From Acidobacteriota bacterium (GTDB taxonomy: Bacteria; Acidobacteriota; Terriglobia; Terriglobales; Acidobacteriaceae): 33,909 nucleotides of DNA. The position numbers and the translations under genes were made by a program. This document shows positions 4,295 to 29,226 of the stretch, in pieces; the stretch's first letter is position 1; each line of letters begins with the position of its first letter. The notes beneath the pieces were generated by a model. It did not search any database. It was given only the letters and a program-made list of their open reading frames with translations, and was not told the origin of the DNA. The stretch is taken from positions 619 to 34,527 of the forward strand of contig QIAB01000039.1 in the NCBI GenBank assembly GCA_003225455.1, read 5' to 3'.

Positions 4295-4334
4295 AATCAG
4301 TAGGTTGAAGGTTCGATTCCTTCCGCGCTCACCA
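4295..4334 (+). other. 3' fragment of a tRNA-Lys gene, probable attachment (att) site remnant
   Basis: The 40 bases contain the 3' strand of an anticodon stem, the variable loop, a full T-arm (GAAGG / TTCGATT / CCTTC) and an acceptor 3' strand ending GCGCTCACCA. They match the 3' half of acidobacterial-type tRNA-Lys genes. The 5' half is absent: the bases before 4293 do not form a D-arm or acceptor partner. Integrases of the tyrosine family often recombine in tRNA 3' ends and leave such a duplicate at the far end of the element. With the decayed DUF932 and recombinase genes nearby, this is best read as an att duplicate. Confidence 0.65.
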
Positions 4335-4522: not shown

Positions 4523-5971
4523 CTAACTTGACCTTGAATCAGAATCGTGGCCATTGCCAACCAGCTTGCTGACAGCTTTCTCGATCTCTTCCCGACGAAC
4601 GGTTAAGGCGGGATTGTCGTTGAGCTTGTATTTCTCGCGCAACTGTTTCAAATTGTCTCGCTCCTTGCGTTCTTCTTGTGAATAAAAGCGAGCTTTCTCA
4701 AATTCGTGATTCGCGATGGAAGCCTCCATCCGCTGCACGATGAAACGAGTGCGTTTCTGAACTTCGGCGACCTCCTCTGGAAGTGAACCCTGCTGCAGTT
4801 GGGCAGCCGAACCCGCCTCGTCGATGATGTCAACGGCTGTGCCCGGCAAACTTCTATTCTTGATGTACTTGTTGGCGCAGAAAACGGCATGTGCAATGGC
4901 ATCGTCCGGATAAGAGACATTGTGGAATTTCTCGTAAGCTCCTTTGATGCCTTGCAGCACCTTGATGGCGGTCTCTTCATTGGCCGGAGCGACCTCGACG
5001 GCTTGGAAGTATTCCGCAAGCCAGTGCCTGTCTGCCTGCAACTTGGCGAATGTTGCCGGTGTGGATGTACCGATGCACTGAATCTTACCCGCCATGATCG
5101 GTCGCTGCAGCAATTCGGTGACGTGAAACAAAGCTACCGGGGAAATTCCTCCAGGCCGGTCATGCATCCGGTTCACAAAAAAGATTTTCCCATCCTCTGC
5201 CGCCGCTACCAGGGCACGATCCAGTCTCTCGTGCCATGAACCATCCTTTTCTAGTACGCGAAGCGGAGGTAGATCGAGGACGAGAATAGCTTTTTCTGCC
5301 AGCGATTGAGGAACATTACCATCCGCTATGCGCCGAGCCAGCCCGCCGACGATGGTTCGTTTGCCAACCCCTCGCTTTCCCACCAGCACCGGATTCTTCC
5401 GAGTGAAGCGGCATAGAAGCTCTATGAGCCGATCAAGTTCATTCTCGCGGCCAACGAGCGGATGAGTTTGTTCCACCAGATCGCTGATATAAGGACTGAG
5501 TTCATCGAGCACGGGGGGTCGTTTTTGCCCGTGAGCCGACTCGTGCGGCTGCTGTGCGAGTTCCTCGCGAACCTGGTTCAGCCGGAGATCCCGTTCCATC
5601 AAAATCTGCGCCGCAAAGCATTTCTCCTCGCGCAACAGGCCAAGCAGCAGGTGCTCCGTGCCTATATGTTTGTGGGAGAGGCGCTCCGCTTCTTCTCCCG
5701 CATGCGCCAATACACGTTTGGATTCGTTGCTCAAAGGAAGGTCGACTGAAGTCGAAACCTTCTCCCGAACGTTGGTGTGTCCCTCGATCTGCTTCCGGAT
5801 TGACTCCACAGACGCATGGGAGTGCAGGAAACGATTGGTGAGAGCTTTGTCTTCGCGCAGAAGGCCCAGCAGCAGGTGCTCCGTCTCGATGTAGGGAGAA
5901 CCAAATTGGCTGGCTTCATAGCGTGCAAAGAAAATAATCCGACGCGCTTTCTCCGTGTAGCGTTCAAACAC
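4523..5971 (-). CDS. ClpC-derived protein: Clp N-domain, one degenerate AAA domain, UVR motif, no second AAA domain
   Basis: A 482-residue protein related to the ClpC unfoldase. Residues 2-140 hold two Clp-N repeats (each with an E-H-L-L-L-G-L-L-R-E core), the adaptor and substrate-binding part. An AAA (D1-like) domain spans about 165-390, and a UVR motif about 405-445 (A-N-H-E-F-E-K-A-R). The second AAA domain, the ClpP-binding loop and roughly 330 residues of normal ClpC are absent. Walker A is kept as G-K-R-G-V-G-K-R (K204). Walker B is I-F-F-V-N267-R268-M-H instead of the usual F-I-D-E-L-H. The arginine-finger segment reads L-A-E-Y-F-Q instead of L-E-R-R-F-Q, and the L-P-D-K segment reads L-P-G-T. 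It may bind ATP but should hydrolyse poorly. GTG start at 5971 with AGGA upstream; a TATACT box lies on the same strand at 6011-6016. Confidence 0.85.
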   Translation of the reverse strand: MFERYTEKARRIIFFARYEASQFGSPYIETEHLLLGLLREDKALTNRFLHSHASVESIRKQIEGHTNVREKVSTSVDLPLSNESKRVLAHAGEEAERLSHKHIGTEHLLLGLLREEKCFAAQILMERDLRLNQVREELAQQPHESAHGQKRPPVLDELSPYISDLVEQTHPLVGRENELDRLIELLCRFTRKNPVLVGKRGVGKRTIVGGLARRIADGNVPQSLAEKAILVLDLPPLRVLEKDGSWHERLDRALVAAAEDGKIFFVNRMHDRPGGISPVALFHVTELLQRPIMAGKIQCIGTSTPATFAKLQADRHWLAEYFQAVEVAPANEETAIKVLQGIKGAYEKFHNVSYPDDAIAHAVFCANKYIKNRSLPGTAVDIIDEAGSAAQLQQGSLPEEVAEVQKRTRFIVQRMEASIANHEFEKARFYSQEERKERDNLKQLREKYKLNDNPALTVRREEIEKAVSKLVGNGHDSDSRSS

Positions 5972-6231
5972 TTTTGCAATGTCCTAAATCTGAAGAACTG
6001 TCGCCAAACGAGTATAAACAGACCCCAACGAAGTTGTTGTAATCAGGCGTGGCTGTCGAAAAACTCCTTCTTGCTAAATTCGCAAAAATAAAATTGCGTC
6101 AGGATGCGTTATGGGCGATCTTCTCGGATCGCAAGGCATTTTCTATCCCCCTAACTTTGACTTCTTCCGGACAAAAGTGAGTTTTTCAACAGCCACAGGC
6201 GTTAACACTTCAAAACCCAGGCTATACGATT

Positions 6232-6435
6232 TCAGTTTTTCCACTGCGCTGTTTGTCCCACTCCCGAATCAGATCGGGCATTCTGTTCTGCGTCCGCCAT
6301 CTCTAACGCCGCGCGGAAATCTTCCATCCGCCTTTGAGCTTCTCCCAAGTGTTGTTTCGAGAGATGCACGTAACGCTGAGTTGTTTTTAGATCAGCGTGT
6401 CCCATAAGCTTTGCAAGCGTGTGCGCCGGTTTCAT
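6232..6435 (-). pseudogene. Tyrosine recombinase (phage-type integrase), C-terminal stub
   Basis: The 67 residues begin M-K-P-A-H-T-L-A-K-L-M-G-H and continue to T-T-Q-R-Y-V-H-L-S. This is the end of a tyrosine recombinase catalytic domain: the L-M-G-H histidine (H13) and the tyrosine nucleophile (Y22) remain, but the first arginine, the lysine and the H-x-x-R box are gone. Sequence upstream is the unrelated beta-propeller gene, whose stop overlaps the ATG as ATGA. The stub therefore cannot be active and is a leftover of a deleted integrase. It points toward the tRNA-Lys fragment at 4295-4334. A GGGAG precedes the ATG, inside the last codons of the upstream gene, so the stub might still be translated. 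Confidence 0.7.
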
Positions 6436-8699
6436 CTCCCGCGAATCACTGTTTTGGCGGAGACCATGTTGTCATAGCGATCATAGACACGCACCACGAC
6501 AACGTGCTCGGCGTGCTGCGTGGAGGCAACTGACGGCTTCGCGCCTGGAGGATCTGGCTCGGCCGGCGGCGCGATGCGGAAATCGTAAGCTTCCGTCTTA
6601 GCGTCAGAGAGTTGGCCGACTGGCTCAACAAACTGCCAATCGCCGGCGTCGATTGAATATTCCGCGCGCTTAATCGAGGAGAAGGTGTCGGCGGCGCGGA
6701 AGTTGATATGGATTTTTTCTCCGTCCATCCCCGCGTTGAGATTCTGAATCTGCGGCGGAGTGGTATCTACCTCAAATCGCGCGCTCTCTTTTTCCGCGGT
6801 CAGAGCCTGATCAGGGGAATGAGAGGGCGCGTCAGACGCAACCACTTTGATGGTGTATCCGCCATCCGGCAACAGTGATGCGTCGAACGAGTAGAACTTG
6901 TCAGTCAAATTGTCTTTGAGCAGCAACCAACGCGTCTCGCCGTCGCCGCGGTAGTAAATCGAATAGACCATCTGATCGTCGTTGTCGTCGTGAACGGTCC
7001 AGCGCACGCCAATGGCGTCACGGTCGTGAACGGACGGAGGCATAACATCAAAGCGCTGCTGGTTGCCGGCCGCCGCGCTGCTGTCACTCACCGGCTTGGG
7101 AATTGATTGATAGCGCAAGCCGACCGAGACCATGACGTCGTCAAAATCGGGCGCAACGTTTTTGGGAAGATAATTCAGCGTGACGCTGTCAACGCGCGGC
7201 GCCGGATCGCCTGCGTGCAACACCGCCTTCCATTGCACGAAACGAGCGGGAGGTACGGGCATTTCAGCATCCTTCCGCAGATCAACTTTTCTCCAGGGGC
7301 TCCAGTTGCGGTCGGGATTGTCCACATTCCCGCTGCGCGTAAATAGTTCTGTATTGCCCGCGCTGCGCACCTCAGCCCGTCCCCAGCGCGAAAAGATGCG
7401 AGCATCAAAAATATCGCTCTCGTAACTTCCCTGTGCCTCCGGTGCCCCTCCCAGCAAAAAGACTTTTCCCAGATTGCTGGTGGACGCGTAAATTCCGCCG
7501 TCCGCCGTATCGGCAAATGAGGTTACCTGGCTGGCGCTTGCCTTGAGTAAGTCGGTGTAGTTGTCTTCTCCAATGATTGCGAAAATGTGACCGCGATTTC
7601 CCGTGCCAGCCAGCAAGCGTCCGCGTTTGTCAAACGCCAGCGCGTAGACCAGATCATCGCGGGATGCCCAGATCCGGCTGGGAGAGCCGTCGGGGGCAAT
7701 GCGGTAGATTTCCGAGCCTCCGGCAGAACCGCCTGCCGGGAATGGACCGAGCGCGGGTTGCGGGTTGAGCGGGGGCGTGGCGCTCGAAACCGTTATCCCC
7801 GGCTGCGCTGCCGGCGCCACTGAGGCGGGCGGCTGGTTAGGGGCAGGTACCGGGAAACTTGGAGTGGCGCTGCCACCGCGCTTTTCGCCTCCCGCCGAAG
7901 CATAGATGTTGCCAGCCTTATCGATTGCCAACGCTGTAATCTCTTTTTTTGGCGCGCTGTATAGAACGAATCCCTCACCTTTTGGCGAAATGCGGTACAC
8001 GAGACCGCTGCCATCCGAGCCGGCAATCAAGTTCCCGTTAGCGTCGAGCGCCAGCACGCGGATGTGAGCTTCGTCACTTTTGAAAAAAACTGTATGAGTT
8101 CCCGCCGGGGTGACCTGGAAAATCTCGCCGCGATCGCCCGTGGCAACGTAGAGATTACCTGCTGCGTCGAGTACGAGATCCCAGATGTATTTCGTCTTCG
8201 GATCAAAATAGACGGAAGCGGAAAATTCGCTCGCGGAATGGTTCTGATCCGCGGCAGTTTTGGACGACTCGGAAGAACTGGCGCGGCGCTCGATGCGGTA
8301 GACCTTGCCGTCGGGATTCGTGGCTGCGTAAATCACGCCCTTCTTGTCCACGACGACCGACTGCACCTGCAACTCCTGAGGTTCAAAAATCGGTGCGGAA
8401 TTCCCCGCGAGCGTAATCCGGTAGACGCGCGCTGGCGCGCCGGTCGCGGCGTAAATGACGCCGGCAGAATCTGTGGCGATTGACCATATATAGGTGGATG
8501 GAGTCGTAGATACGGGCTTGAAGGCGGGCGCCAGCTCGAGGCCTCCCGTGCTTCGTACGGCGACGCCTTTGGGCGTGCCTTTGCTGAGATCATCGAACTT
8601 CGACTGCTCCCAGGTGCGAGTGCCTTCACCATAGAGAGCGCCTGACGCCACAAGAGGAATGAGGAATGTAAGCGAGAGCTTACGCGGATGAATTGCCAA
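6432..8699 (-). CDS. Secreted beta-propeller protein with C-terminal immunoglobulin-like region
   Basis: A 755-residue exported protein of unknown role. A signal peptide covers about residues 1-24. Residues 60-410 contain repeated propeller strands of the pattern D-x-x-G-x-I-Y-A-A-T-x-x-G-x-V-Y-R-I (for example V-D-K-K-G-V-I-Y-A-A-T and A-G-N-L-Y-V-A-T-G-D-R-G), interrupted by a proline- and glycine-rich loop at about 285-330. After residue 420 the pattern changes to beta-sandwich-like segments with Y-S-I-Y-Y-R-G-D-G and D-T-T-P-P-Q-I, typical of extracellular Fn3/Ig-like domains. I accept the TTG start at 8699 because GAGG lies eight bases upstream and the signal peptide follows at once. It lies 124 bases downstream of the S55 peptidase gene on the same strand, so the two may be cotranscribed. 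Binding partner or enzyme activity cannot be told. Confidence 0.8.
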   Translation of the reverse strand: MAIHPRKLSLTFLIPLVASGALYGEGTRTWEQSKFDDLSKGTPKGVAVRSTGGLELAPAFKPVSTTPSTYIWSIATDSAGVIYAATGAPARVYRITLAGNSAPIFEPQELQVQSVVVDKKGVIYAATNPDGKVYRIERRASSSESSKTAADQNHSASEFSASVYFDPKTKYIWDLVLDAAGNLYVATGDRGEIFQVTPAGTHTVFFKSDEAHIRVLALDANGNLIAGSDGSGLVYRISPKGEGFVLYSAPKKEITALAIDKAGNIYASAGGEKRGGSATPSFPVPAPNQPPASVAPAAQPGITVSSATPPLNPQPALGPFPAGGSAGGSEIYRIAPDGSPSRIWASRDDLVYALAFDKRGRLLAGTGNRGHIFAIIGEDNYTDLLKASASQVTSFADTADGGIYASTSNLGKVFLLGGAPEAQGSYESDIFDARIFSRWGRAEVRSAGNTELFTRSGNVDNPDRNWSPWRKVDLRKDAEMPVPPARFVQWKAVLHAGDPAPRVDSVTLNYLPKNVAPDFDDVMVSVGLRYQSIPKPVSDSSAAAGNQQRFDVMPPSVHDRDAIGVRWTVHDDNDDQMVYSIYYRGDGETRWLLLKDNLTDKFYSFDASLLPDGGYTIKVVASDAPSHSPDQALTAEKESARFEVDTTPPQIQNLNAGMDGEKIHINFRAADTFSSIKRAEYSIDAGDWQFVEPVGQLSDAKTEAYDFRIAPPAEPDPPGAKPSVASTQHAEHVVVVRVYDRYDNMVSAKTVIRGR

Positions 8700-10760: not shown

Positions 10761-11984
10761 ATGTTTTACACTGGTTTTTTTGGGCGCAGAGCCATTAGTT
10801 CCATCGCGGCATTTGCCCTCCTTCCGTTCATGACTGCAACTTTGGTGATCTTGACATTGTCACCAATTTCGGTTATCGGCCAGGACCAACCTGCCCAGGC
10901 TGCACCGCCCAGCGGGCAGCAGCAGGAGCCGCCGCCCGCCGCCGGCGGCCCGCAAAGCGATACCGGTCCCTACGCCATTCCCAAGAAGAAAGAAGAGCCG
11001 CCGGCGCCTCCGCCCGTCGAGAAGCCGAAGAAGATCGAGGGCATGCCGGATTACTCCATCCGCGTCGATGTGCCGCTGGTGAACGTGGACGCCTTGGTGA
11101 CAACCAAGAATGGACAGTTTGTTCCCGGACTAAAGAAAGAGAACTTCAAGGTGCTCGAAGATGGCGTCCCGCAGACAATCAGCAACTTCAATGTTTCCGA
11201 AGCGCCTATAACCGCAGTGCTGCTGGTCGAATTTGCTTCAACAAATTACTACTTCATGGTCGATGCGTTGAACGCCAGCTACGCCTTCGCGAACTCTTTG
11301 AAAAAGAATGATTGGGTAGCCGTGATCTCGTACGATATGAAGCCGCATATCCTGGCGGATTTCACCCAGGATAAACGCGCGGTCTACGGGGCGCTGAACC
11401 AGTTACGCATTCCCGGTTTCGCGGAAACTAATTTATTCGACGCGCTCTACGACACGCTCGACAGATTGGACCAAATCGAGGGCCGCAAGTACATCATCAT
11501 GGTTACTACGGGCGTGGATACATTCAGCAAGCTCAACCTTGATCAGATTATGAAGAAGATCAAGGCGACCAAGGATGTGACTATCTTTCCAGTAAGCGTA
11601 GGATTTGCGGTGCGCGAATATTGCGAGACGCATCGCTGCGGCTACACCCACGGCGTTGGCATTCCGGTCAATAACATGGATTACCTTCAGGGTGATAACG
11701 AAATGAATACCTTCGCTCGCCTCACTGGAGGCCGCGCGTACTTCCCGCGCTTTCAGGGCGAGCTGCCGGAGATTTTTCATGACGTCAGCGGTGACATCCG
11801 CAACCAGTACAATCTCGCCTATCGCCCGACGAACCCGAAGCTCGATGGTACCTACCGCAAGCTGAAAGTCGAGGTAGTTGGCCCCGACGGCAGTCCGCTG
11901 AAGGTGCGTGATCAGAAGGGCAAAGACGTGAAGTACCAGATCCTCGCGCGCGACGGATACACGGCCAAACACACGGTCGAGTAG
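10761..11984 (+). CDS. VWFA-related acidobacterial exported protein
   Basis: A 407-residue protein of the acidobacterial VWFA-related type. An N-terminal hydrophobic signal or anchor spans about 11-40, followed by a low-complexity Q/P/G region and K-K-E-E-P-P-A-P-P-P (about 45-92). The characteristic segment V-D-V-P-L-V-N-V-D-A-L-V at 102-113 and N-F-K-V-L-E-D-G-V-P-Q at 128-138 precede the von Willebrand A domain (150-350). The metal-ion site D-x-S-x-S is replaced by E157-F-A-S-T, so metal-dependent ligand binding is doubtful. Such proteins are abundant and secreted in Acidobacteria, with no proven function. Start ATG has GAGGAG seven bases upstream. It faces the ZIP transporter gene, ending six bases from it with no visible terminator hairpin. 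Confidence 0.88.
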   Translation: MFYTGFFGRRAISSIAAFALLPFMTATLVILTLSPISVIGQDQPAQAAPPSGQQQEPPPAAGGPQSDTGPYAIPKKKEEPPAPPPVEKPKKIEGMPDYSIRVDVPLVNVDALVTTKNGQFVPGLKKENFKVLEDGVPQTISNFNVSEAPITAVLLVEFASTNYYFMVDALNASYAFANSLKKNDWVAVISYDMKPHILADFTQDKRAVYGALNQLRIPGFAETNLFDALYDTLDRLDQIEGRKYIIMVTTGVDTFSKLNLDQIMKKIKATKDVTIFPVSVGFAVREYCETHRCGYTHGVGIPVNNMDYLQGDNEMNTFARLTGGRAYFPRFQGELPEIFHDVSGDIRNQYNLAYRPTNPKLDGTYRKLKVEVVGPDGSPLKVRDQKGKDVKYQILARDGYTAKHTVE

Positions 11985-11990
11985 CGAGTT

Positions 11991-12722
11991 TTAGTGCACG
12001 TGGACAAACTGGTCGAGCAGGAATAACAACCCCACGCCCAAAAAGACTACGAATGCCATCCGTGCGCCTGGCTCCCGGTTGACCTCAGGCATAAGATCGG
12101 ATGCCGCGACGTAGATAGTCACGCCCGCCGAGAGCGGCAACCCGAAGCTCACTTGGGCGCGCAGCAAAGCCATGGCCATCACGCCGGCGAGCGTGGCCGC
12201 CCCCAGCAGCATCGAAGCACCCCAGGCAATGCCGCGGCTTTGTCCGCTGGCCAGCATAACGGAGGCAACGGTGAATCCTTCTGGAATCTTGTGAAGGAAA
12301 ACCGCAAGAAAAATGATCCATCCCAGCCAATTGGACACGATGAAACCCGATGCGATGGCGATCCCATCAAAAAACGTGTGGATGATCAACGCAAGCAGCA
12401 CGGAGTAGCCGTGATGGCCGCGTATAAATTGATCGGGATGGGTTTCTTCTCCGAAGTGAAAGTGCGGGGTGACGGTGTGCTCAAAGAAATGAATGATTAG
12501 ATAACCGAGCAGGATGAGAAAGGCGGCGTCCTTGCCCCGCAGTTCGAAACTGATGGGAACGATTTCTACGATCGCCGTGGCCAGCATGAAGCCAGCGCCC
12601 AGAGCCACGAAATATTTCAGATACGAACGTTCCCAATGCTTCTGAACGATAATTGCGCCACCAAAAACGTTTGCCGCAGCGGCGGTCAGGCCCAGCAGAA
12701 GACTCAAAAGGATGGGGTGCAT
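11991..12722 (-). CDS. ZIP-family divalent metal transporter
   Basis: A 243-residue inner-membrane protein with about eight hydrophobic segments, full length for the bacterial ZIP family. These carriers bring zinc, iron or manganese into the cytoplasm. The transport-site residues are visible in two helices: H115-T-F-F-D119-G in the fourth, and H144-K-I-P-E148-G in the fifth. The cytoplasmic loop before helix four is histidine-rich (T-P-H-F-H-F-G-E-E-T-H and R-G-H-H-G), as usual for metal capture or sensing. The N-terminal helix has the family's L-G-L-T-A-A-A-A-N-V-F-G-G pattern. ATG at 12722 has no strong ribosome site. No metal regulator lies beside it. Which metal it carries cannot be decided. 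Confidence 0.9.
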   Translation of the reverse strand: MHPILLSLLLGLTAAAANVFGGAIIVQKHWERSYLKYFVALGAGFMLATAIVEIVPISFELRGKDAAFLILLGYLIIHFFEHTVTPHFHFGEETHPDQFIRGHHGYSVLLALIIHTFFDGIAIASGFIVSNWLGWIIFLAVFLHKIPEGFTVASVMLASGQSRGIAWGASMLLGAATLAGVMAMALLRAQVSFGLPLSAGVTIYVAASDLMPEVNREPGARMAFVVFLGVGLLFLLDQFVHVH

Positions 12723-16204: not shown

Positions 16205-17167
16205 TTAGAGCGGTACCGGTACGCTATCTACAATCTCGGTGATCATCTCCTCTGCTCGCTCATATTTCTTTCGGGCAGACGAAGACGAATTTCCGTTCAG
16301 CACCACGCGGTGTGCAAAGACCGGTACCGCAAGCGGCTTGAAATCTTCCGGCGTGCAAAAGCTACGGCCATCGAGAAAGGCCGTAGCCTGGGCCGCCCGG
16401 TAGAGCATCTGCGAGCCACGCGGCGACACTCCCAGCGAGAAGTGCTGCGTGTCGCGGGTCTTACGGACAATAGCAAGCGCATAGTTGACCAGCGAATCAT
16501 CGACGCGAACCTGCGTAACTGCCTCCTGCATTTCCAGGACATCGGCGCCGTTCAGCACCGGTTCCATTACGTCCAATTGGCCCGCGCCGACTTCTGATCG
16601 CAAAATCTCCCGTTCAGCGTTGCTATCCGGATAGCCCATGCGAACACGCATCAGAAATCGATCGAGCTGCGATTCCGGCAAGGGATAAGTTCCGTGCTGT
16701 TCAGCGGGGTTCTGCGTGGCAATCACCAGGAACGGCTGCGGCAGCGAATAGGAATGCGAATCCACTGTGACCTGTCCTTCGTTCATAGCCTCAAGCAACG
16801 CCGACTGCGTTTTCGGCGTGGTGCGGTTGATTTCGTCTGCTAACAGAATATTAGTGAACAGTGGGCCGCGCTTGAACTCAAACTGCTGTTCCATCGCAGA
16901 GTAGATTGAGATTCCGATCACGTCGGATGGCAGCATATCACTGGTGAACTGCACTCGTTGAAAGCGGCAATCGATGGCGCGCGCCAGAGCCTGCGCTAGA
17001 GTGGTCTTTCCAACGCCGGGAACGCCTTCGATCAGCAGATGTCCGCGCGCAAGGATCGAAACCAGAGCCAGCCTAACCACGTCATCGTTGCCGCGAATGA
17101 TCTTTCGCAGTGCGGCTTCAAGCTGTGACGCACGACTTGCAGCGGCCGTGGCGGTTTCCGGAGACAT
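16205..17167 (-). CDS. MoxR-family AAA+ ATPase
   Basis: A 320-residue cytosolic AAA+ protein. MoxR proteins are chaperone-like ATPases that help mature or insert metal centres, often beside DUF58 and VWA proteins. Walker A is G-V-P-G-V-G-K-T at 48-55 and Walker B I-L-L-A-D-E-I-N at 107-114. The stretch F-T-S-D-M-L-P-S-D-V-I-G (74-85) is a MoxR signature, and A-T-Q-N-P follows as sensor 1. The C-terminal lid contains G-V-S-P-R-G-S-Q-M-L, also typical. The usual DUF58 partner is absent: the next gene is DUF4149. I start it at the ATG at 17167; a GTG at 17218 would add 17 residues that look unconserved. Confidence 0.9.
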   Translation of the reverse strand: MSPETATAAASRASQLEAALRKIIRGNDDVVRLALVSILARGHLLIEGVPGVGKTTLAQALARAIDCRFQRVQFTSDMLPSDVIGISIYSAMEQQFEFKRGPLFTNILLADEINRTTPKTQSALLEAMNEGQVTVDSHSYSLPQPFLVIATQNPAEQHGTYPLPESQLDRFLMRVRMGYPDSNAEREILRSEVGAGQLDVMEPVLNGADVLEMQEAVTQVRVDDSLVNYALAIVRKTRDTQHFSLGVSPRGSQMLYRAAQATAFLDGRSFCTPEDFKPLAVPVFAHRVVLNGNSSSSARKKYERAEEMITEIVDSVPVPL

Positions 17168-23303: not shown

Positions 23304-26300
23304 CTAATAAAAATCGTGCGAGCTGGTTTCGGCTTGCGTGATGGCCAGCGGCAGGACACGCTCGGCTTTGACGGAAATCACATTATCCTGGTTCTGCAAA
23401 ATACCTTCGATCATCAGGAACTGCTCGGCGGTTACCAGTAACCGGTTTTTCTGAAACAGATCGGGATTGATGATGGCGTTGGCTACACCGGTTTCATCTT
23501 CCAGACTTAGAAATACAAATCCCTTTGCGGTTCCGGGACGTTGGCGGGCAATAACGCATCCTCCGATTCGTGCTCGCTGACCATTGGGGATCGACTTGAG
23601 GTCGATTGCTCTGCGGACTCCGGTGCTTTGTAAGCGCGCACGATGATAGGCCATCGGATGGGGGCCAACCGTCAGCCCGGTTCCGCGAAAGTCGGCCACC
23701 AGACGTTCTTCATTATTCATTTGCATAAGTGGCGATTTCGAATCGGGTTCCGGCAATTCCTCCAGCAGCGGTCCGGAGTAACGCACGGCGCGCTCGACTT
23801 GCCAGAGCGCATCTCTTCTATGCAGTTTCGAGTTTCGAGTTGTAACCGAATTACTGGGAACTGCGAACTGAGAACTGAGAACTGAATTCAATGCACCAAT
23901 TTCAGCCAGCGTATTCAGTTCATCTTTGCGTAATTCGGGGACGCGATGGACCAGATCATGAACAGAAGAAAACGGAGCATGATTTCGCTCGCGCACCAGG
24001 GCCTGCGCGGCTTCTTCGCGCAGTCCGCGAACATAGCGTAGGCCAAGGCGGAGCGCGGGCCTTTCGACTTCCCCGATTGCGGGATGGCCCTCCAGCCTAT
24101 CGTTTGAAGAATTCCCTCCATTTTCCTGGCCAACGGCCAATGACCAATGACCAACGACTGCATTCACGACTGTACATTTCCACTCCGACTTCATCACATC
24201 CACCGGCAATACCTTCAGTCCGTGGCGTTGTGCATCTTTGACGATCGTCGCGGGACGATAAAACCCCATCGGCTGATTATTCAGCAATGCAGCGGTGAAC
24301 GCGGCCAGGTAATGACATTTCAGATAGGCGCTGGCATAAGCAATCAAAGCGAAGCTGGCCGCGTGCGATTCAGGGAATCCATACAACGCGAAAGATGTGA
24401 TTGAAAGAATGATCTGCTCCTGCGCCCCGCGCGAAATACCATTGCGATCCATGCCGGCGCGCAGCTTGGTCTCAATCTCCCGCATGCGCTTTTCCGAGCG
24501 CTTGAATCCCATGGCACGGCGAAGTTCTTCGGCTTCGCCACCGCTGAATCCGGCTACCACCATAGCCATACGCAGCAGTTGTTCCTGAAACAGCGGCACA
24601 CCCAGAGTCCGCTTGAGCACAGGTTCGAGCGATGGATGCGCATAGGTGACCTCCTCGCGTCCCTGGCGGCGCTGTAAATAAGGATTCACCATTTGGCCGA
24701 CAATGGGCCCAGGACGAATGATCGCCACCTGCACCACGATGTCATAAAACTTCTTGGGCCTCAGGCGCGGCAGGCATGACATCTGCGCCCGGCTCTCGAT
24801 CTGGAACATGCCAATGGTGTCGGCTTTCTGCAGAGTCGAATAAACTTCGGGATCGTCCGCCGGCAGGTGAGCCAGGTCAACTTCTTCGTGGTAGTGATTG
24901 CGAATCAGTTCGAGCGAATCTTCGAGCACCGCCATCATTCCCAGCCCAAGCAGATCTACTTTGATAATGCCGAGATCAGCGCAGTCATCTTTGTCCCATT
25001 GCACGACGACGCGCCCGGGCATGGAAGCAGGTTCGAGGGGGACGACAGAATCAAGTTGCCCCTGGCAAATTACCATTCCACCGGAGTGCTGGCCGAGATG
25101 CCGGGGCAGATCCTGCACTGCCACGCACAGCTCAAAGTATTTGCGTAGACGAGGATGGCTGAGGTCAAGCCCGGCATCTCGGAAGCGATGGTCGAAGGTA
25201 TCGTTCGAATCGCGGTATTCCCAGGTAGAAACCGCAGCGGAAACTTTGTCGAGAGTTTCAGGGTCGAAACCGAGTGCCTTGCCTATTTCGCGGCCCGCCA
25301 TGCGGCTGCGATAGGTGATCACGTTCGCGGTCATGGCGGCCCCGCGCTCACCATATCGCTTATATAAATATTGGATGACGCGTTCTCGCTGGTCTCCGCT
25401 GGGGAGGTCAAGATCGATATCCGGCCACTCGCCGCGTTCTTCAGAAAGAAAGCGCTCGAAGAGCAGCTCCATGCCGACCGGATCGACCGCGGTAATCCCA
25501 AGCGAGTAACACGCGGCACTGTTGGCCGCTGAGCCACGCCCCTGCACTAGAATTTTTTGTTCCCGGCAGAAGCGCACCAGGTCCCAAACAATCAGGAAAT
25601 AGCCTTCAAGTTTGAGCTTTTCGATCAGGTGTAATTCGCGATCCACTTGCTGGCGGGCGCAGTTCTGCAAATCTGCCGTCGCTCTGCAGTATCGTTGCTG
25701 GAAACCCTCCCGCGTGTGCTCCCGCAGGAACGACATCATGGTCTCACCCTTGGGCACAGGGTATTTTGGGAATTCGTATCCGAGATCTTTCAGCGTGAAC
25801 TCGATTCGCGAAGAAAGTTCGGCCGTATTGGCGATGGCTTCTGGAAAGTCAGAAAACAACCTTTCCATTTCCTGCGTCGATTTCAGATGACGTTCGGAAT
25901 TGCGCGGCAGTAAGCGTCCCGCTGCAGCTAACGTGCAGTGGTTGCGAATGGCGGTAAATACATCGCACAATTCGCGTTCGCGTGGAGTGGCATAACAGAC
26001 GCCATTGGCCGCAAGCAGAGGAAGCTGAAGTGAACGGGCAATTTCAATAGCAGCATGGTTGCGGGCCTCCTGCTCGCGATGGAAATGCCGCTGCAATTCG
26101 ATATAAACATTTTCGCGTCCAAAAATATCGATCAACTCTTCGACTGACCGCCGCGCTTCCGCTATGCCGCCGTGGGCAAGAGCAATGGCAAGCGGCCCAT
26201 TTTCTCCACCAGTAAGGCAGATCAATCCTGCAGCGTGTTCCCGCAGTTCATCTTCGCGCACTGCGCCCTCGCCCTTTTTCGCGCGAAGCTTCATCTTCGT

Positions 26301-26612
26301 GATTAAGCGGCAGAGATTTTGATAACCGGCGCGGGAGGAAATAAGAACAGGAAGGCAACATGTTTCTATTTTTGAATTGTGGAATTTGTGAAAGTTTTTG
26401 GAAATCTCGTATGTCACCTCCGCCCCAATATGCGCTTTGATTCCTGCTCTTTTGGCCGCCATGTAAAAGCGCGGCGCGCCATATACGCCATCTCGATCCA
26501 GCAGCGCCATGGCAGTCATATCCAGATGTGCGCAGATCTCGATCAAGCTTTCAGGCAGAGAGGCGCCCTCAAGAAAACTAAAAGCAGAGCGAGCGTGAAA
26601 CTCGATGTACAT
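23304..26612 (-). CDS. dnaE2: Error-prone DNA polymerase III alpha subunit DnaE2 (ImuC)
   Basis: About 1,102 residues, a C-family polymerase used in damage-induced mutagenesis with ImuA and ImuB. The N-terminal PHP domain starts M-Y-I-E-F-H-A-R-S-A-F-S-F-L-E-G-A-S. The polymerase core shows the G-R-G-S-A-A-N-S motif and the catalytic acid cluster W-P-D-I-D-L-D-L. The finger, helix-hairpin-helix and OB parts follow (A-L-R-L-G-L-R-Y-V-R-G-L, then G-G-C-V-I-A-R-Q-R-P-G-T-A-K-G). Two stretches look inserted: one around V-V-G-H-W-S-L-A-V-G-Q and one around L-S-S-Q-F-A-V-P-S-N-S; both are encoded by tandem heptamers. The ATG at 26612 fits the family start; a GTG nine codons upstream is possible. 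It is the last gene of the imuA-imuB-dnaE2 unit. Confidence 0.95.
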   Translation of the reverse strand: MYIEFHARSAFSFLEGASLPESLIEICAHLDMTAMALLDRDGVYGAPRFYMAAKRAGIKAHIGAEVTYEISKNFHKFHNSKIETCCLPVLISSRAGYQNLCRLITKMKLRAKKGEGAVREDELREHAAGLICLTGGENGPLAIALAHGGIAEARRSVEELIDIFGRENVYIELQRHFHREQEARNHAAIEIARSLQLPLLAANGVCYATPRERELCDVFTAIRNHCTLAAAGRLLPRNSERHLKSTQEMERLFSDFPEAIANTAELSSRIEFTLKDLGYEFPKYPVPKGETMMSFLREHTREGFQQRYCRATADLQNCARQQVDRELHLIEKLKLEGYFLIVWDLVRFCREQKILVQGRGSAANSAACYSLGITAVDPVGMELLFERFLSEERGEWPDIDLDLPSGDQRERVIQYLYKRYGERGAAMTANVITYRSRMAGREIGKALGFDPETLDKVSAAVSTWEYRDSNDTFDHRFRDAGLDLSHPRLRKYFELCVAVQDLPRHLGQHSGGMVICQGQLDSVVPLEPASMPGRVVVQWDKDDCADLGIIKVDLLGLGMMAVLEDSLELIRNHYHEEVDLAHLPADDPEVYSTLQKADTIGMFQIESRAQMSCLPRLRPKKFYDIVVQVAIIRPGPIVGQMVNPYLQRRQGREEVTYAHPSLEPVLKRTLGVPLFQEQLLRMAMVVAGFSGGEAEELRRAMGFKRSEKRMREIETKLRAGMDRNGISRGAQEQIILSITSFALYGFPESHAASFALIAYASAYLKCHYLAAFTAALLNNQPMGFYRPATIVKDAQRHGLKVLPVDVMKSEWKCTVVNAVVGHWSLAVGQENGGNSSNDRLEGHPAIGEVERPALRLGLRYVRGLREEAAQALVRERNHAPFSSVHDLVHRVPELRKDELNTLAEIGALNSVLSSQFAVPSNSVTTRNSKLHRRDALWQVERAVRYSGPLLEELPEPDSKSPLMQMNNEERLVADFRGTGLTVGPHPMAYHRARLQSTGVRRAIDLKSIPNGQRARIGGCVIARQRPGTAKGFVFLSLEDETGVANAIINPDLFQKNRLLVTAEQFLMIEGILQNQDNVISVKAERVLPLAITQAETSSHDFY
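23824..23887. repeat. Heptamer arrays inside dnaE2 (AGTTTCG and ACTGAGA)
   Basis: Two exact AGTTTCG units with a partial third (23824-23842) and then five units ACTGGGA, ACTGCGA, ACTGAGA, ACTGAGA, ACTGAAT (23853-23887). ACTGAGA is a circular permutation of GAACTGA. The stretch encodes roughly 20 residues between the conserved E-I-G-A-L-N and H-R-R-D-A-L-W segments. Confidence 0.8.
24130..24157. repeat. Four tandem heptamers (CCAATGA) inside dnaE2
   Basis: CCAACGG, CCAATGA, CCAATGA and CCAACGA in a row. On the coding strand they give part of V-V-G-H-W-S-L-A-V-G-Q, just before the conserved P-A-L-R-L-G-L segment. The dnaE2 frame stays open through the array. Confidence 0.75.
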
Positions 26613-26643
26613 CGGACTCTCGACAGAGGCGTTACTCACAACC

Positions 26644-26685
26644 GAGAACTGCTTTTTGTAAAAATCAGTTCTCAGTTCTCAGTTT
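26644..26685. repeat. Heptamers and a strong hairpin between imuB and dnaE2
   Basis: GAGAACTG at 26644-26651 and CAGTTCTC at 26666-26673 are perfect inverted repeats; inside them TTTTT (26653-26657) and AAAAA (26660-26664) pair as well. The right arm is part of three heptamers: TCAGTTC, TCAGTTC, TCAGTTT (26665-26685). It sits in the short gap between the imuB stop and the dnaE2 start, where an RNA fold could change dnaE2 translation. Confidence 0.7.
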
Positions 26686-26690
26686 CCCAA

Positions 26691-28250
26691 TTAGTCATAG
26701 CTTCCTTCTAAGAACCACCTTCCACTGAGCAGATCGCGAACCAGGCGATATAGCGCAATTCCGCTTTCCTGCTGCACAGCGATGTCCCATTCATCGCGCG
26801 CCCATCCTTCGTGCTCCCACCAGTCTCCCGAAGAGCGCCAGGGGCCCGCACTCCAGAAAATTTCTCCATCTATGTGTTTGCGCTTGGGACAGGTGATTCG
26901 CGCAGGCACGCCGTCCCGTATGTTCACAATAGCGAATAGAGATGGGCGAATAATTCGCAGGGCGGTGACCGCGCCGTCTTTGCTCTGCAGATGTGCCGCC
27001 GAGTGCGGAAAACTTTCGGCTTTAGCCGTCGAGGTCTGTGGCTGAGAATTCTCTGGCATGAATCGCTGCATTTGAAATGTCTGCGGACGATGTGTATCCA
27101 TCATTTGCACAGCGCCCACTTTGTTTTCTCCAACAATGCCGGCAATTCGCGCCAGCGTGAGTTCAAGTTTTTCCGGTTCCGGTGAAGGAGGGAGAAATAG
27201 CCCATTTTGCGCGGCTCGCGGCCGCGCCGGCTCGGCTGATAACTGAATTTTGATGATAGGAGCACCTGGAGGATGCGCCTTCAAATCAAGCTGCAGGAGC
27301 TTGAGAAAAATCTTTTCATCGAGCAGAGGGACAGGAAGCCGGAGCGTGCGATGGAAAGTTTTGGTATGACTGCCGTTTTCGAGTTCAAGTTGCAGCCGTA
27401 TTTCTTGGGTGGCCAAAGCTCTGGCGCTCAAACGGCCACATAGTTGTTCCAGCATCCGCGCCAGCAGAAATGCGAGCGGCTCCAACAGAACCAGTGGGTG
27501 TTCCAGTTCGACCGCTTCTTCAAAAACCAATGGCGGTTCCACCGGAACGAGAGTGCGGAAGGTTACTCCACGCGCTAACTGCTGCAGGCGAACTCCTTCT
27601 TGCCCCAATCGCTCGCTAAGCGCGATCTCCGGTAAAGTGGCGAGAGCGCGTAGATTGCGAATGCCCCAGCGGCTGAGTGTTTCTAAAATTCGCACGCGAT
27701 CTAAATCAGCATCGAAAAACAGCACCTCCACGGGCAGGCTCCCCAACTGCTCCGCCTCTTTCCCGTCCGCAATCACAGTTACTCCGGAGAATCCACGAGC
27801 TGCAATTAACGCGGTGTCTGGATTCGCCGCCACAGCAACATTAGTTTCAAGCCCCAAATCGGAGGCACGCTGCGACACATCGCGGGCAATCTTCGGCAGA
27901 GGGCCGAAAAGCGATTCCATGCCGGCGAGATCAAGGATGATGGTGTCGCAGCCAGCATCTTCGACCCGCGGCGAGAACGCTTGCGCACAATCCAGCAACG
28001 CAGCATGAGCGGCGGTTTCCTGCAAAGGCGAGCGCGCCCGCAACGCAAGCTCAGAGCAAGCTTCCACTTGCAGTTTCGTCATTCCCACTTCCACCCCGGC
28101 ACGGCGCGCTTTTTCATTTGCAGTCAAAACTTTTTCGAGAGGCGCTTTGCCTTCAAGCACAACAACGGCTTGCGAGCGCAGTTCCGGTTCCACGCGCAGA
28201 AGCGCTTCCACAGGAAAGTCGGGAACGAAGATGCAGGCAAAAGCGGGCAT
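26691..28250 (-). CDS. imuB: ImuB, catalytically inactive Y-family polymerase homologue
   Basis: A 519-residue protein of the mutagenesis cassette. ImuB links DnaE2 and ImuA to the sliding clamp and is itself inactive as a polymerase. The Y-family fold is visible: I-F-V-P-D-F-P-V-E-A at the start replaces the metal-binding D-x-D-x-F-F/Y region, and I-I-L-D-L-A-G-M-E-S-L-F-G replaces the D-E catalytic motif, as in known ImuB proteins. The little-finger region and a C-terminal extension follow, ending R-W-F-L-E-G-S-Y-D; this end contains A-G-P-W-R-S-S-G-D-W-W, a feature of acidobacterial ImuB. The ATG at 28250 lacks a strong ribosome site and lies 37 bases after imuA. Confidence 0.93.
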   Translation of the reverse strand: MPAFACIFVPDFPVEALLRVEPELRSQAVVVLEGKAPLEKVLTANEKARRAGVEVGMTKLQVEACSELALRARSPLQETAAHAALLDCAQAFSPRVEDAGCDTIILDLAGMESLFGPLPKIARDVSQRASDLGLETNVAVAANPDTALIAARGFSGVTVIADGKEAEQLGSLPVEVLFFDADLDRVRILETLSRWGIRNLRALATLPEIALSERLGQEGVRLQQLARGVTFRTLVPVEPPLVFEEAVELEHPLVLLEPLAFLLARMLEQLCGRLSARALATQEIRLQLELENGSHTKTFHRTLRLPVPLLDEKIFLKLLQLDLKAHPPGAPIIKIQLSAEPARPRAAQNGLFLPPSPEPEKLELTLARIAGIVGENKVGAVQMMDTHRPQTFQMQRFMPENSQPQTSTAKAESFPHSAAHLQSKDGAVTALRIIRPSLFAIVNIRDGVPARITCPKRKHIDGEIFWSAGPWRSSGDWWEHEGWARDEWDIAVQQESGIALYRLVRDLLSGRWFLEGSYD

Positions 28251-28287
28251 TGCTTCAGTCGTTAGTCGTTTGCCCTCAGTTTGTGTG

Positions 28288-29226
28288 TTAGCCGGCTCGT
28301 ACAGTTTTCGTCCTGAACCCGGCCCTTACAGATTGTTGCGGCTTCCGCTCAAGCCTGGATCGCAAAATCTCTCCTTCCACTTTCAATCCTTCAAAAAGAT
28401 GCGTGTGTGAAGAAACTGGAGTTTGAGAGCCGATGGCTGAAAGCTTTCCCGAAGACTGACGATCGACGGCCGAAGACCATAATTTGAGCGACAGCGCCGC
28501 GCAACTTTGCGCGCACGGAGCTGGCGTAATCGCAAGCAGCACCGTAGGCGTGTGCTCCACCGCACGCTGAAAACGAAACCAGGAAGTCAGGGGAATGCGC
28601 CGGGCCACGCGGAACGGAACGTCACCCAAATCTATGGCCACCATGCCGAATCCGCCGCTTTGCAGTAGCAAGTCGGTGACTCGCAGCGCTTGCTCCAGCG
28701 CAGACATCGGATCTCGGACTTCAGATCTCGGCGGTTGAGGATCAAGTCCAAAGTGTGAACTCTGACTCCTGAAAGCTGATGGCTGACGGCTGACGGCTGA
28801 AGTCCGAGGTCCGAACTCCGCTCCTCCACACCGAACCCACAGCAATCGTTCAAAATCCACTCCCGCCGCGTCGGCGGAACCTGGGTCAAAAGCATCGCTT
28901 GCATCCACAAGAACGCAAACTTCTTGCCGCCGTGTAGCCACGGCAAGCGCCGCCAGCAGCACGCTGGTACGTCCCGAAGAGGTTGGCCCGCAAATTTCAG
29001 TTAAACATCCGCGCGGTAGCCCTCCGGTGAGCGAATTTAGTTCTTGAATTCCAATGGGAACCATTTCCGGTGCGGGCCTTATCTCCAGCCGGGAAGCGGG
29101 AGTGACGGCAGCAAGCCTCGACATCTGCGACAGCCGCTCCAAAACCAGCACCGGCCCAGGCTTTTGGGGAAAGTCAGGGGGACGGCCCAAGGCCATTTCG
29201 ACGCAAAACAAAGGAGAAGAAGACAT
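28288..29226 (-). CDS. imuA: ImuA, RecA-like mutagenesis protein with repeat-encoded insertions
   Basis: A 312-residue RecA/SulA-like protein, first gene of the cassette. The P-loop at 80-87 reads G-P-T-S-S-G-R-T: the lysine that holds ATP in RecA is arginine, a change I also expect in other acidobacterial ImuA. The RecA-like core continues with V-C-V-L-V-D-A-S-D-A-F-D-P and L-L-W-V-R-C. Residues about 134-175 interrupt the core before the conserved L-E-Q-A-L-R-V-T-D-L-L-L-Q-S-G-G-F-G and are encoded by tandem heptamers; a second such stretch lies near S-S-A-V-D-R-Q-S-S-G-K. The C-terminus ends in a basic tail. The ATG at 29226 has GAGG about seven bases upstream. Operator-like repeats and a TTGACA box lie upstream. 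Confidence 0.9.
   Translation of the reverse strand: MSSSPLFCVEMALGRPPDFPQKPGPVLVLERLSQMSRLAAVTPASRLEIRPAPEMVPIGIQELNSLTGGLPRGCLTEICGPTSSGRTSVLLAALAVATRRQEVCVLVDASDAFDPGSADAAGVDFERLLWVRCGGAEFGPRTSAVSRQPSAFRSQSSHFGLDPQPPRSEVRDPMSALEQALRVTDLLLQSGGFGMVAIDLGDVPFRVARRIPLTSWFRFQRAVEHTPTVLLAITPAPCAQSCAALSLKLWSSAVDRQSSGKLSAIGSQTPVSSHTHLFEGLKVEGEILRSRLERKPQQSVRAGFRTKTVRAG
28425..28478. repeat. Heptamer blocks in the 3' part of imuA (GANNNCY)
   Basis: Three units GAGAGCC, GATGGCT, GAAAGCT (28425-28445) and, after five bases, four units GAAGACT, GACGATC, GACGGCC, GAAGACC (28451-28478). They share the GA-start pattern with the 28757 array. The imuA frame stays open. Confidence 0.6.
28705..28732. repeat. 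Heptamer block in imuA (TCTCGGA)
   Basis: CATCGGA, TCTCGGA, CTTCAGA, TCTCGGC form a diverged seven-base period. It sits 24 bases before the longer array at 28757 and belongs to the same inserted region. Confidence 0.55.
28757..28819. repeat. Nine tandem heptamers (GANNNCY) inside imuA
   Basis: GAACTCT, GACTCCT, GAAAGCT, GATGGCT, GACGGCT, GACGGCT, GAAGTCC, GAGGTCC, GAACTCC: nine units without a gap, 63 bases, exactly 21 codons. Every unit begins GA. The array codes for the inserted segment between L-L-W-V-R-C and L-E-Q-A-L-R. Confidence 0.8.

Follow-up and report, generated by a model that had tools for sequence, protein, structure and literature searches.

A truncated ClpC paralogue with lost catalytic residues, very probably a pseudo-ATPase under selection

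Introduction

The AAA+ unfoldase ClpC is held in a resting state by M-domain contacts through residue F436, as described in PMC5699869, and the account in PMC12583610 adds the N-domain anchors T7, R9, and K85, which act with D356/E359. The latter source also describes the binding of the adaptor MecA to both phospho-arginine (pArg) pockets and to the M-domain tip of ClpC. A crystallized complex of MecA (3pxg) contains an engineered ClpC fragment of residues 1–485. Phage SPO1 is reported to target ClpC with its protein Gp53 (PMC6873191). Two kinds of ClpC relatives have been described in other bacteria: mycobacterial ClpC2, a partial homologue (PMC10030653), and ClpI of Actinomycetota (PMC10149685). 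In the open-access literature, nothing was found that pairs a pseudo-ATPase with ClpC, and searches on truncated or paralogous ClpC, ClpC decoys, Acidobacteria ClpC, and AAA+ pseudoenzymes returned no such protein among the matches listed.

The gene presented here lies in a stretch of 33,909 nucleotides (the window, that is, the whole of the DNA that was analyzed) from the genome of a soil acidobacterium (Acidobacteriaceae), a draft of 4.99 Mb in 195 contigs. Its product, termed pseudo-ClpC, is very probably a pseudo-ATPase paralogue of ClpC that is maintained by selection.

Results

Gene and domain organization

The coding sequence of pseudo-ClpC occupies positions 4523–5971 on the minus strand. 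It starts with a GTG codon at 5971, which aligns with the ATG of the orthologues, terminates with a stop codon at 4523–4525, and encodes 482 residues. The ClpC N-terminal domain with its two Clp_N repeats (residues 1–140; 5552–5971, minus strand) starts at residue 1, so that there is no extra N-terminal dimer domain. It is followed by an AAA+ large subdomain that has lost its catalytic motifs (residues 169–330; 4982–5467), an AAA lid (residues 331–400; 4772–4981), and an M-domain or UVR-like coiled coil (residues 401–450; 4622–4771), all on the minus strand. The Phe at the tip of the M-domain, F436 in B. subtilis and S. aureus ClpC, is kept.

Pfam recognized Clp_N (PF02861) in two stretches, the best spanning residues 91–139, the AAA lid, and, below threshold, an AAA match. 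A preliminary description of this DNA, which gave no strand for the gene, had taken both the Clp-N repeats and the UVR motif as intact. The former is borne out by the two Pfam stretches and by 89% identity to the ClpC of the same genome; the latter holds by alignment with ClpC, on which the UVR/M assignment is based, whereas no UVR match was obtained with Pfam. Pfam found no MecA domain in the protein at E 0.001, the NCBIfam HSP100 models matched in part and far below their cut-offs, and PADLOC matched neither P0001 nor any of five further proteins.

The protein ends at residue 482, and neither a second AAA domain nor a ClpP-docking loop is present. When the D2 half of the host ClpC was compared with the window by tblastn, nothing matched near the gene, in line with the earlier statement that the second AAA domain is absent. 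The best match was weak (16694–17044, E 2e-5) and fell inside a MoxR-like AAA gene, the other being at E 3.3.

The genome has its own ClpC of 814 residues on contig C135, 61% identical to pseudo-ClpC over residues 1–472, and a ClpB-like match on contig C81. Divergence from the host ClpC is uneven, with identities of 89% in the N-domain, 30% in the linker, 43% in the AAA large subdomain, 56% in the lid, 76% in the UVR/M region, and 31% in the tail. Over the same regions the host ClpC is 84–99% identical to the other ClpCs, in a set of 29 ClpCs (L024, whose start motif was not matched, was left out, and L003 is a ClpB).

The solved chains closest to pseudo-ClpC are those of ClpC. An AlphaFold2 model built with 38 sequences has a mean pLDDT of 79 and a pTM of 0.54, and replaces an earlier model from 12 sequences with a pLDDT of 50. 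The N, AAA, and M parts are all predicted, the M part as two helices (399–420 and 424–447). The fold is thus predicted to be ClpC-like, with a domain arrangement that is unsure at this pTM. Foldseek matches include 3pxg, with a TM-score of about 0.43 by query length and an r.m.s.d. of about 16.

Loss of the catalytic residues

The Thr of the Walker A motif binds Mg. The motif reads GEPGVGKT in ClpC and GKRGVGKR in pseudo-ClpC (residues 198–205; 5357–5380, minus strand), where the alignment shows a retained Lys and an Arg in place of the Thr. The position of the Ser/Thr is occupied by Arg or Lys in all six known copies of pseudo-ClpC, each with the Lys retained. The Walker A motif, initially listed as present, is therefore preserved in its Lys and not in its Ser/Thr.

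Both acidic residues of Walker B are lost in the six copies, Asp being replaced by Asn or Ser and Glu by Arg or Gln. They are Asn and Arg in the window, within the former motif IFFVNRMH (residues 263–270; 5162–5185, minus strand), and a search among the orthologues for an intact Walker B found none (0/6). The Tyr of pore loop 1 (GTKYRG) is deleted from every one of these copies. At the arginine-finger positions, Glu or Asp and Tyr are found in 5/5 copies with data; in the window, the two Arg have become E-Y in the segment LAEYF (residues 318–322; 5006–5020, minus strand). The LPDK motif of the lid has become LPGT in the window and LPG followed by Thr or Ala in 5/5 copies, without its Asp and Lys. 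The alignment thus reproduces the substitutions given in the preliminary description for Walker B, the arginine fingers, and LPDK.

All these catalytic positions are intact in the 36 ClpCs used for the comparison. The losses are shared by orthologues of four genera and so go beyond chance. Judged from its sequence, the protein is well supported as a pseudo-ATPase, as had been proposed at first, both by the shared loss of motifs and by the purifying selection presented below.

Distribution of the orthologues

With residues 141–400 as the query, copies were found sporadically within the family, in 6 of its 398 genomes including that of the window, in four genera. The five other copies are 74–92% identical over the AAA part, two of them (G094 and G082) being partial. 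The remaining family matches listed are 45–49% identical, nearly all of them in open frames of ClpC length. Wider, overlapping draws that include the window's genome gave copies in 4/298 genomes of the order, 3/399 of the class, and 1/396 of the phylum (E ≤1e-66). The gene is present in 2/6 genomes of the genus of G077 and in 2/2 of that of G082.

A search of 61 genomes with the whole protein, the window's genome included, yielded no other orthologue; its matches were ClpC, ClpB, N-domain-only, or other partial ones. No relative of residues 141–400 was found in the viral contigs, where a match to the Walker B DNA pattern in L096 was dismissed as chance since tblastn found no relative there. 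Among plasmids, 2071 records matched, all below 60% identity (eight of the 2071 are listed).

Each of the six carriers also encodes a full-length ClpC (810–815 residues) with intact motifs. The four full copies, that of the window included, have 476–482 residues and share a common end point, with a poorly conserved tail. The G082 copy is truncated by the end of its contig and contains a masked stretch. The G094 copy (L051:6758–7822) has a frame that is disturbed inside the AAA part, by decay or assembly error, and runs off the contig end; it entered the residue comparison only from the P-loop onward, and is absent from the dN/dS analysis, the fourfold-site comparison, and the tree.

Purifying selection

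The dN/dS ratios over all sites, computed by the Nei-Gojobori method from five copies, range from 0.13 to 0.23 in 10/10 orthologue pairs. The five host ClpC pairs for which dS could be computed have ratios near 0.01, so that the constraint on pseudo-ClpC is much weaker than that on ClpC and far from neutral. The preliminary description had raised the possibility of neutral decay, and purifying selection was found instead. When the window gene was evolved neutrally at 0.05, 0.13, 0.19, and 0.35 substitutions per site, it stayed free of stop codons in 79, 3, 0, and 0 of 1000 runs, respectively. A decaying pseudogene or an assembly artefact, which the disturbed frame of G094 at a contig end, the draft state of all six carriers in many contigs, and the ratios of up to 0.50 in the lid and 0.40 in the M part of the window–G135 pair might have suggested, is largely refuted and very improbable in view of these simulations, of ratios well below 1 in all pairs, and of the four full-length open frames with the same end.

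A site was regarded as fixed in ClpC when it was shared by at least 97% of the 36 ClpCs. Overall, 176 such sites are kept in all copies of pseudo-ClpC, 55 have changed to one new residue shared by the copies, and 49 are both changed and variable. The N-domain retains 89 and has 3 changed in all copies; the M/UVR region likewise retains 19 and has 3 changed in all copies. In the AAA large subdomain, 45 are kept and 72 are changed in all copies, 40 of them to one shared residue. This subdomain is itself constrained, 89 of its 162 positions being invariant among the copies.

The ratios for the linker and AAA large subdomain (0.11–0.25 among orthologue pairs), together with an AAA fold predicted with fair confidence by AlphaFold2, are consistent with a poison subunit that would join ClpC hexamers via its AAA ring and block its neighbours for want of arginine fingers and a second ring. 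Such incorporation is improbable: the protein lacks the Walker A Thr and the Walker B Asp, and ClpC assembly is described as depending crucially on nucleotide binding (PMC5699869), and the 72 fixed AAA sites changed in all copies include the pore loop and the fingers.

Ligand-binding sites and proposed function

Ligand-site positions of the N-domain, a set picked by hand with partial guidance from the literature, are invariant among the copies at 27/29 positions, compared with 65/110 elsewhere in the domain (Fisher p 3e-4). Positions of the peptide groove and of the pArg pockets are nearly invariant. With residue numbers mapped through alignment with B. subtilis ClpC, the equivalents of T7, R9 (Lys here and in the host ClpC), E32, K85, E106, and E359 are conserved in every copy with data, and those of E435 and F436 of the M-domain in 5/5 copies. 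The equivalent of D356, the acidic anchor in AAA1, which is Asp or Glu in 36/36 ClpCs, is Gly in three of five copies, and Asp and Glu in the other two. The equivalents of R443 and E426 of the M-domain are absent even from the host ClpC.

This pattern, read from sequence, favours a protein that binds either ClpC ligands or ClpC itself, and pseudo-ClpC is probably a decoy or regulator rather than an enzyme. The chances are about even that its main mode is that of a sponge or decoy. Pseudo-ClpC would offer the docking platforms of ClpC, namely the N-domain with its peptide groove and phospho-arginine pockets and the tip of the M-domain, while lacking the motor and the ring that docks ClpP. It may thereby bind the usual ligands of ClpC, be they adaptors, hijacking phage or peptide factors, or proteins tagged for degradation, and such binding would damp or protect ClpC. 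The retention of the docking parts and the loss of motor residues in every copy with data point to this mode, for which the N-domain homologue ClpC2 provides a precedent as a cyclomarin sponge (PMC10030653).

Several observations argue against the decoy. Neither MecA nor ClpS was found in the six carriers (0/6 each; the controls were matched in 2/14 and 5/14 genomes, respectively), leaving no known adaptor there to be absorbed; the PF00217 profile for McsB had no match among the controls. The constraint on the dead AAA subdomain would be unneeded for a pure N-domain sponge, Leu and Ala stand at the cyclomarin positions F80 and E89 in both pseudo-ClpC and the host ClpC, and one copy, that of G094, has a disturbed frame.

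The lack of MecA and ClpS in the carriers would suit a delivery adaptor, whose N-domain, with its conserved groove and pArg-pocket positions, would bind substrates and pass them on to ClpC. It is nevertheless an unlikely role, as no ClpC-docking element has been added beyond the M-domain and the tail is poorly conserved.

It is conceivable, with the balance of probability against it, that pseudo-ClpC acts instead on ClpC itself, its M-domain, with the N-domain, joining the head-to-head contacts of ClpC and stabilizing or capping the resting state. This regulator would account for the conservation of the E435 and F436 equivalents in 5/5 copies, the resting state requiring F436 (PMC5699869) and the N-domain anchors (PMC12583610) according to these reports, and for the retention of the whole N-AAA-M span, which is superfluous for a sponge alone. 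Conversely, some copies may have an unanchored N-domain, with Gly at the D356 equivalent in three of five, and the R443 and E426 equivalents are missing even from the host ClpC. As the ligand sites of the N-domain double as resting-state anchors, their conservation fits a sponge and a ClpC-binding regulator alike.

Evidence for horizontal transfer

In a phylogenetic tree, the five copies form one group (support 100/100) on a long stem, and together with the ClpCs of the family they are separated from ten outgroup ClpCs (100/100). At fourfold-degenerate sites, similarity between the copies exceeds that of both ClpB and ClpC in 6/6 genome pairs, of which five link different genera and one lies within a genus (G082–G135), with p ≤5e-5 against ClpB and ≤0.02 against ClpC; these pairs are not independent. 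For the window and G082, dS is 0.43 between the copies and 1.21 between their ClpCs. The difference from ClpC is small in the within-genus pair G077–G194 (0.56 vs 0.51). Since the likeness at silent sites exceeds that of ClpC and ClpB, horizontal transfer of pseudo-ClpC is likely.

Between copies, homology detected by blastn ends no more than some tens of bases beyond the gene, the neighbours that Pfam recognizes are not the same from locus to locus, and the flanks in the window had no match at E 1e-3 to the five other orthologue loci. On the plus strand at 4295–4334, 188 bp past the stop codon of pseudo-ClpC, lies a 40-nt piece identical to the 3′ end of the tRNA-Lys(CTT) genes in L098 and L099. 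No intact tRNA was called at this place (Rfam tRNA 23.1 bits, cut-off 29), and the piece is possibly an integration (att) scar. The same 40 nt occur without a tRNA call in the IMG/VR loci L097, L100, and L101, which suggests attachment sites. On the opposite side, upstream of the gene, the minus strand carries a 67-residue remnant of the C-terminal part of a tyrosine recombinase (6232–6435; PF00589 at 23 bits, cut-off 27.1). Between this remnant and the gene sits an inverted repeat (6049–6196, assigned to no strand) with 25-nt arms at 6049–6073 and 6172–6196 that are 84% complementary. The region was not interpreted as an integrated element, as an intact tRNA-Lys was not located, seven open frames tested to the left of the tRNA-Lys piece had no Pfam match, and the flanks were unmatched.

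Elsewhere, the G194 copy has a tRNA-Asn(GTT) 173 bp upstream (L050:1148–1222). The window also contains, at 23304–29226 on the minus strand, a row of genes for a DNA polymerase III alpha-like protein, an impB/mucB-type polymerase, and a RecA-like protein, which we take to resemble an ImuA-ImuB-DnaE2 mutagenesis cassette.

ClpC N-domains in phages and other proteins

A ClpC N-domain of acidobacterial type is encoded by five IMG/VR contigs (L091–L095), which are probably one phage since they are 99.995–100% identical over their shared part. The protein has 183 residues (L095:10001–10552, plus strand; the same in L091–L094) and consists of the N-domain and, after it, a short stretch resembling the beginning of the second AAA domain; it has neither the first AAA domain nor the M part. 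Its N-domain is 88% identical to the nearest ClpC N-domain compared and 79% identical to that of the window. In L095, the gene lies between those of the terminase (5213–7459) and the portal (10827–12695), near that of the major head protein.

Clp_N-like stretches were also seen in 27 phage records, 15 of which are listed, all below 60% identity to the L095 protein; one example is gp251 of Mycobacterium phage Myrna (NC_011273.1). In genomes G158 and G082, the proteins at L065:1501–2289 and in L067 (open frame from about 949) combine Clp_N with a C-terminal part containing CxxC pairs, which looks like a zinc ribbon by eye; that of L065 has no Pfam match beyond Clp_N. These two proteins are another reuse of the ClpC N-domain.

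The phage protein suggests that the ClpC N-domain is a contested surface. It is tempting, if rather doubtful, to view pseudo-ClpC as a horizontally spread, dead N-AAA-M decoy that would soak up phage or peptide hijackers of ClpC, the phage-borne N-domain being the opposite move.

Discussion

It is unusual for a dead copy of an AAA+ unfoldase to be conserved. Should pseudo-ClpC prove to be a decoy or regulator, a truncated paralogue would join adaptors such as MecA and N-domain sponges such as ClpC2 among the means by which ClpC is controlled. Together with the phage-borne N-domain, pseudo-ClpC points to a contest in soil bacteria over the surface of the ClpC N-domain.

Pseudo-ClpC has the N-domain, first AAA fold, and M-domain of the ClpCs of B. 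subtilis (3j3s) and S. aureus (6em8), and groups with the ClpCs of the family against the ten outgroup sequences. It differs from them by the lack of the second AAA ring, of the catalytic residues, and of the pore-loop Tyr. The phage Clp_N proteins (phrog_35667; L095:10001–10552) likewise have a ClpC N-domain without the motor; the 183-residue protein is a separate derivative, devoid of the first AAA domain and of the M part. ClpI is, as reported, also a distinct class of ClpC-like paralogues, but is double-ringed with intact ATPase modules (PMC10149685).

Mycobacterial ClpC2 resembles pseudo-ClpC as a partial ClpC homologue that retains the N-domain and has no working motor, an intact ClpC being encoded elsewhere (PMC10030653). 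According to the same source, ClpC2 carries an additional dimer domain at its N terminus and is homologous to the N-domain of ClpC1 only, whereas in pseudo-ClpC the N-domain comes first and the AAA and M parts are retained. Of the cyclomarin residues (F2, F80, and E89), pseudo-ClpC keeps F2 and has Leu at 80 and Ala at 89. The ClpC fragment seen with MecA in 3pxg covers nearly the same span, from the N-domain to the M-domain; it is a laboratory fragment of an active ClpC, with 30% identity. Pseudo-ClpC is the natural counterpart of this 1–485 fragment used for studies of MecA binding.
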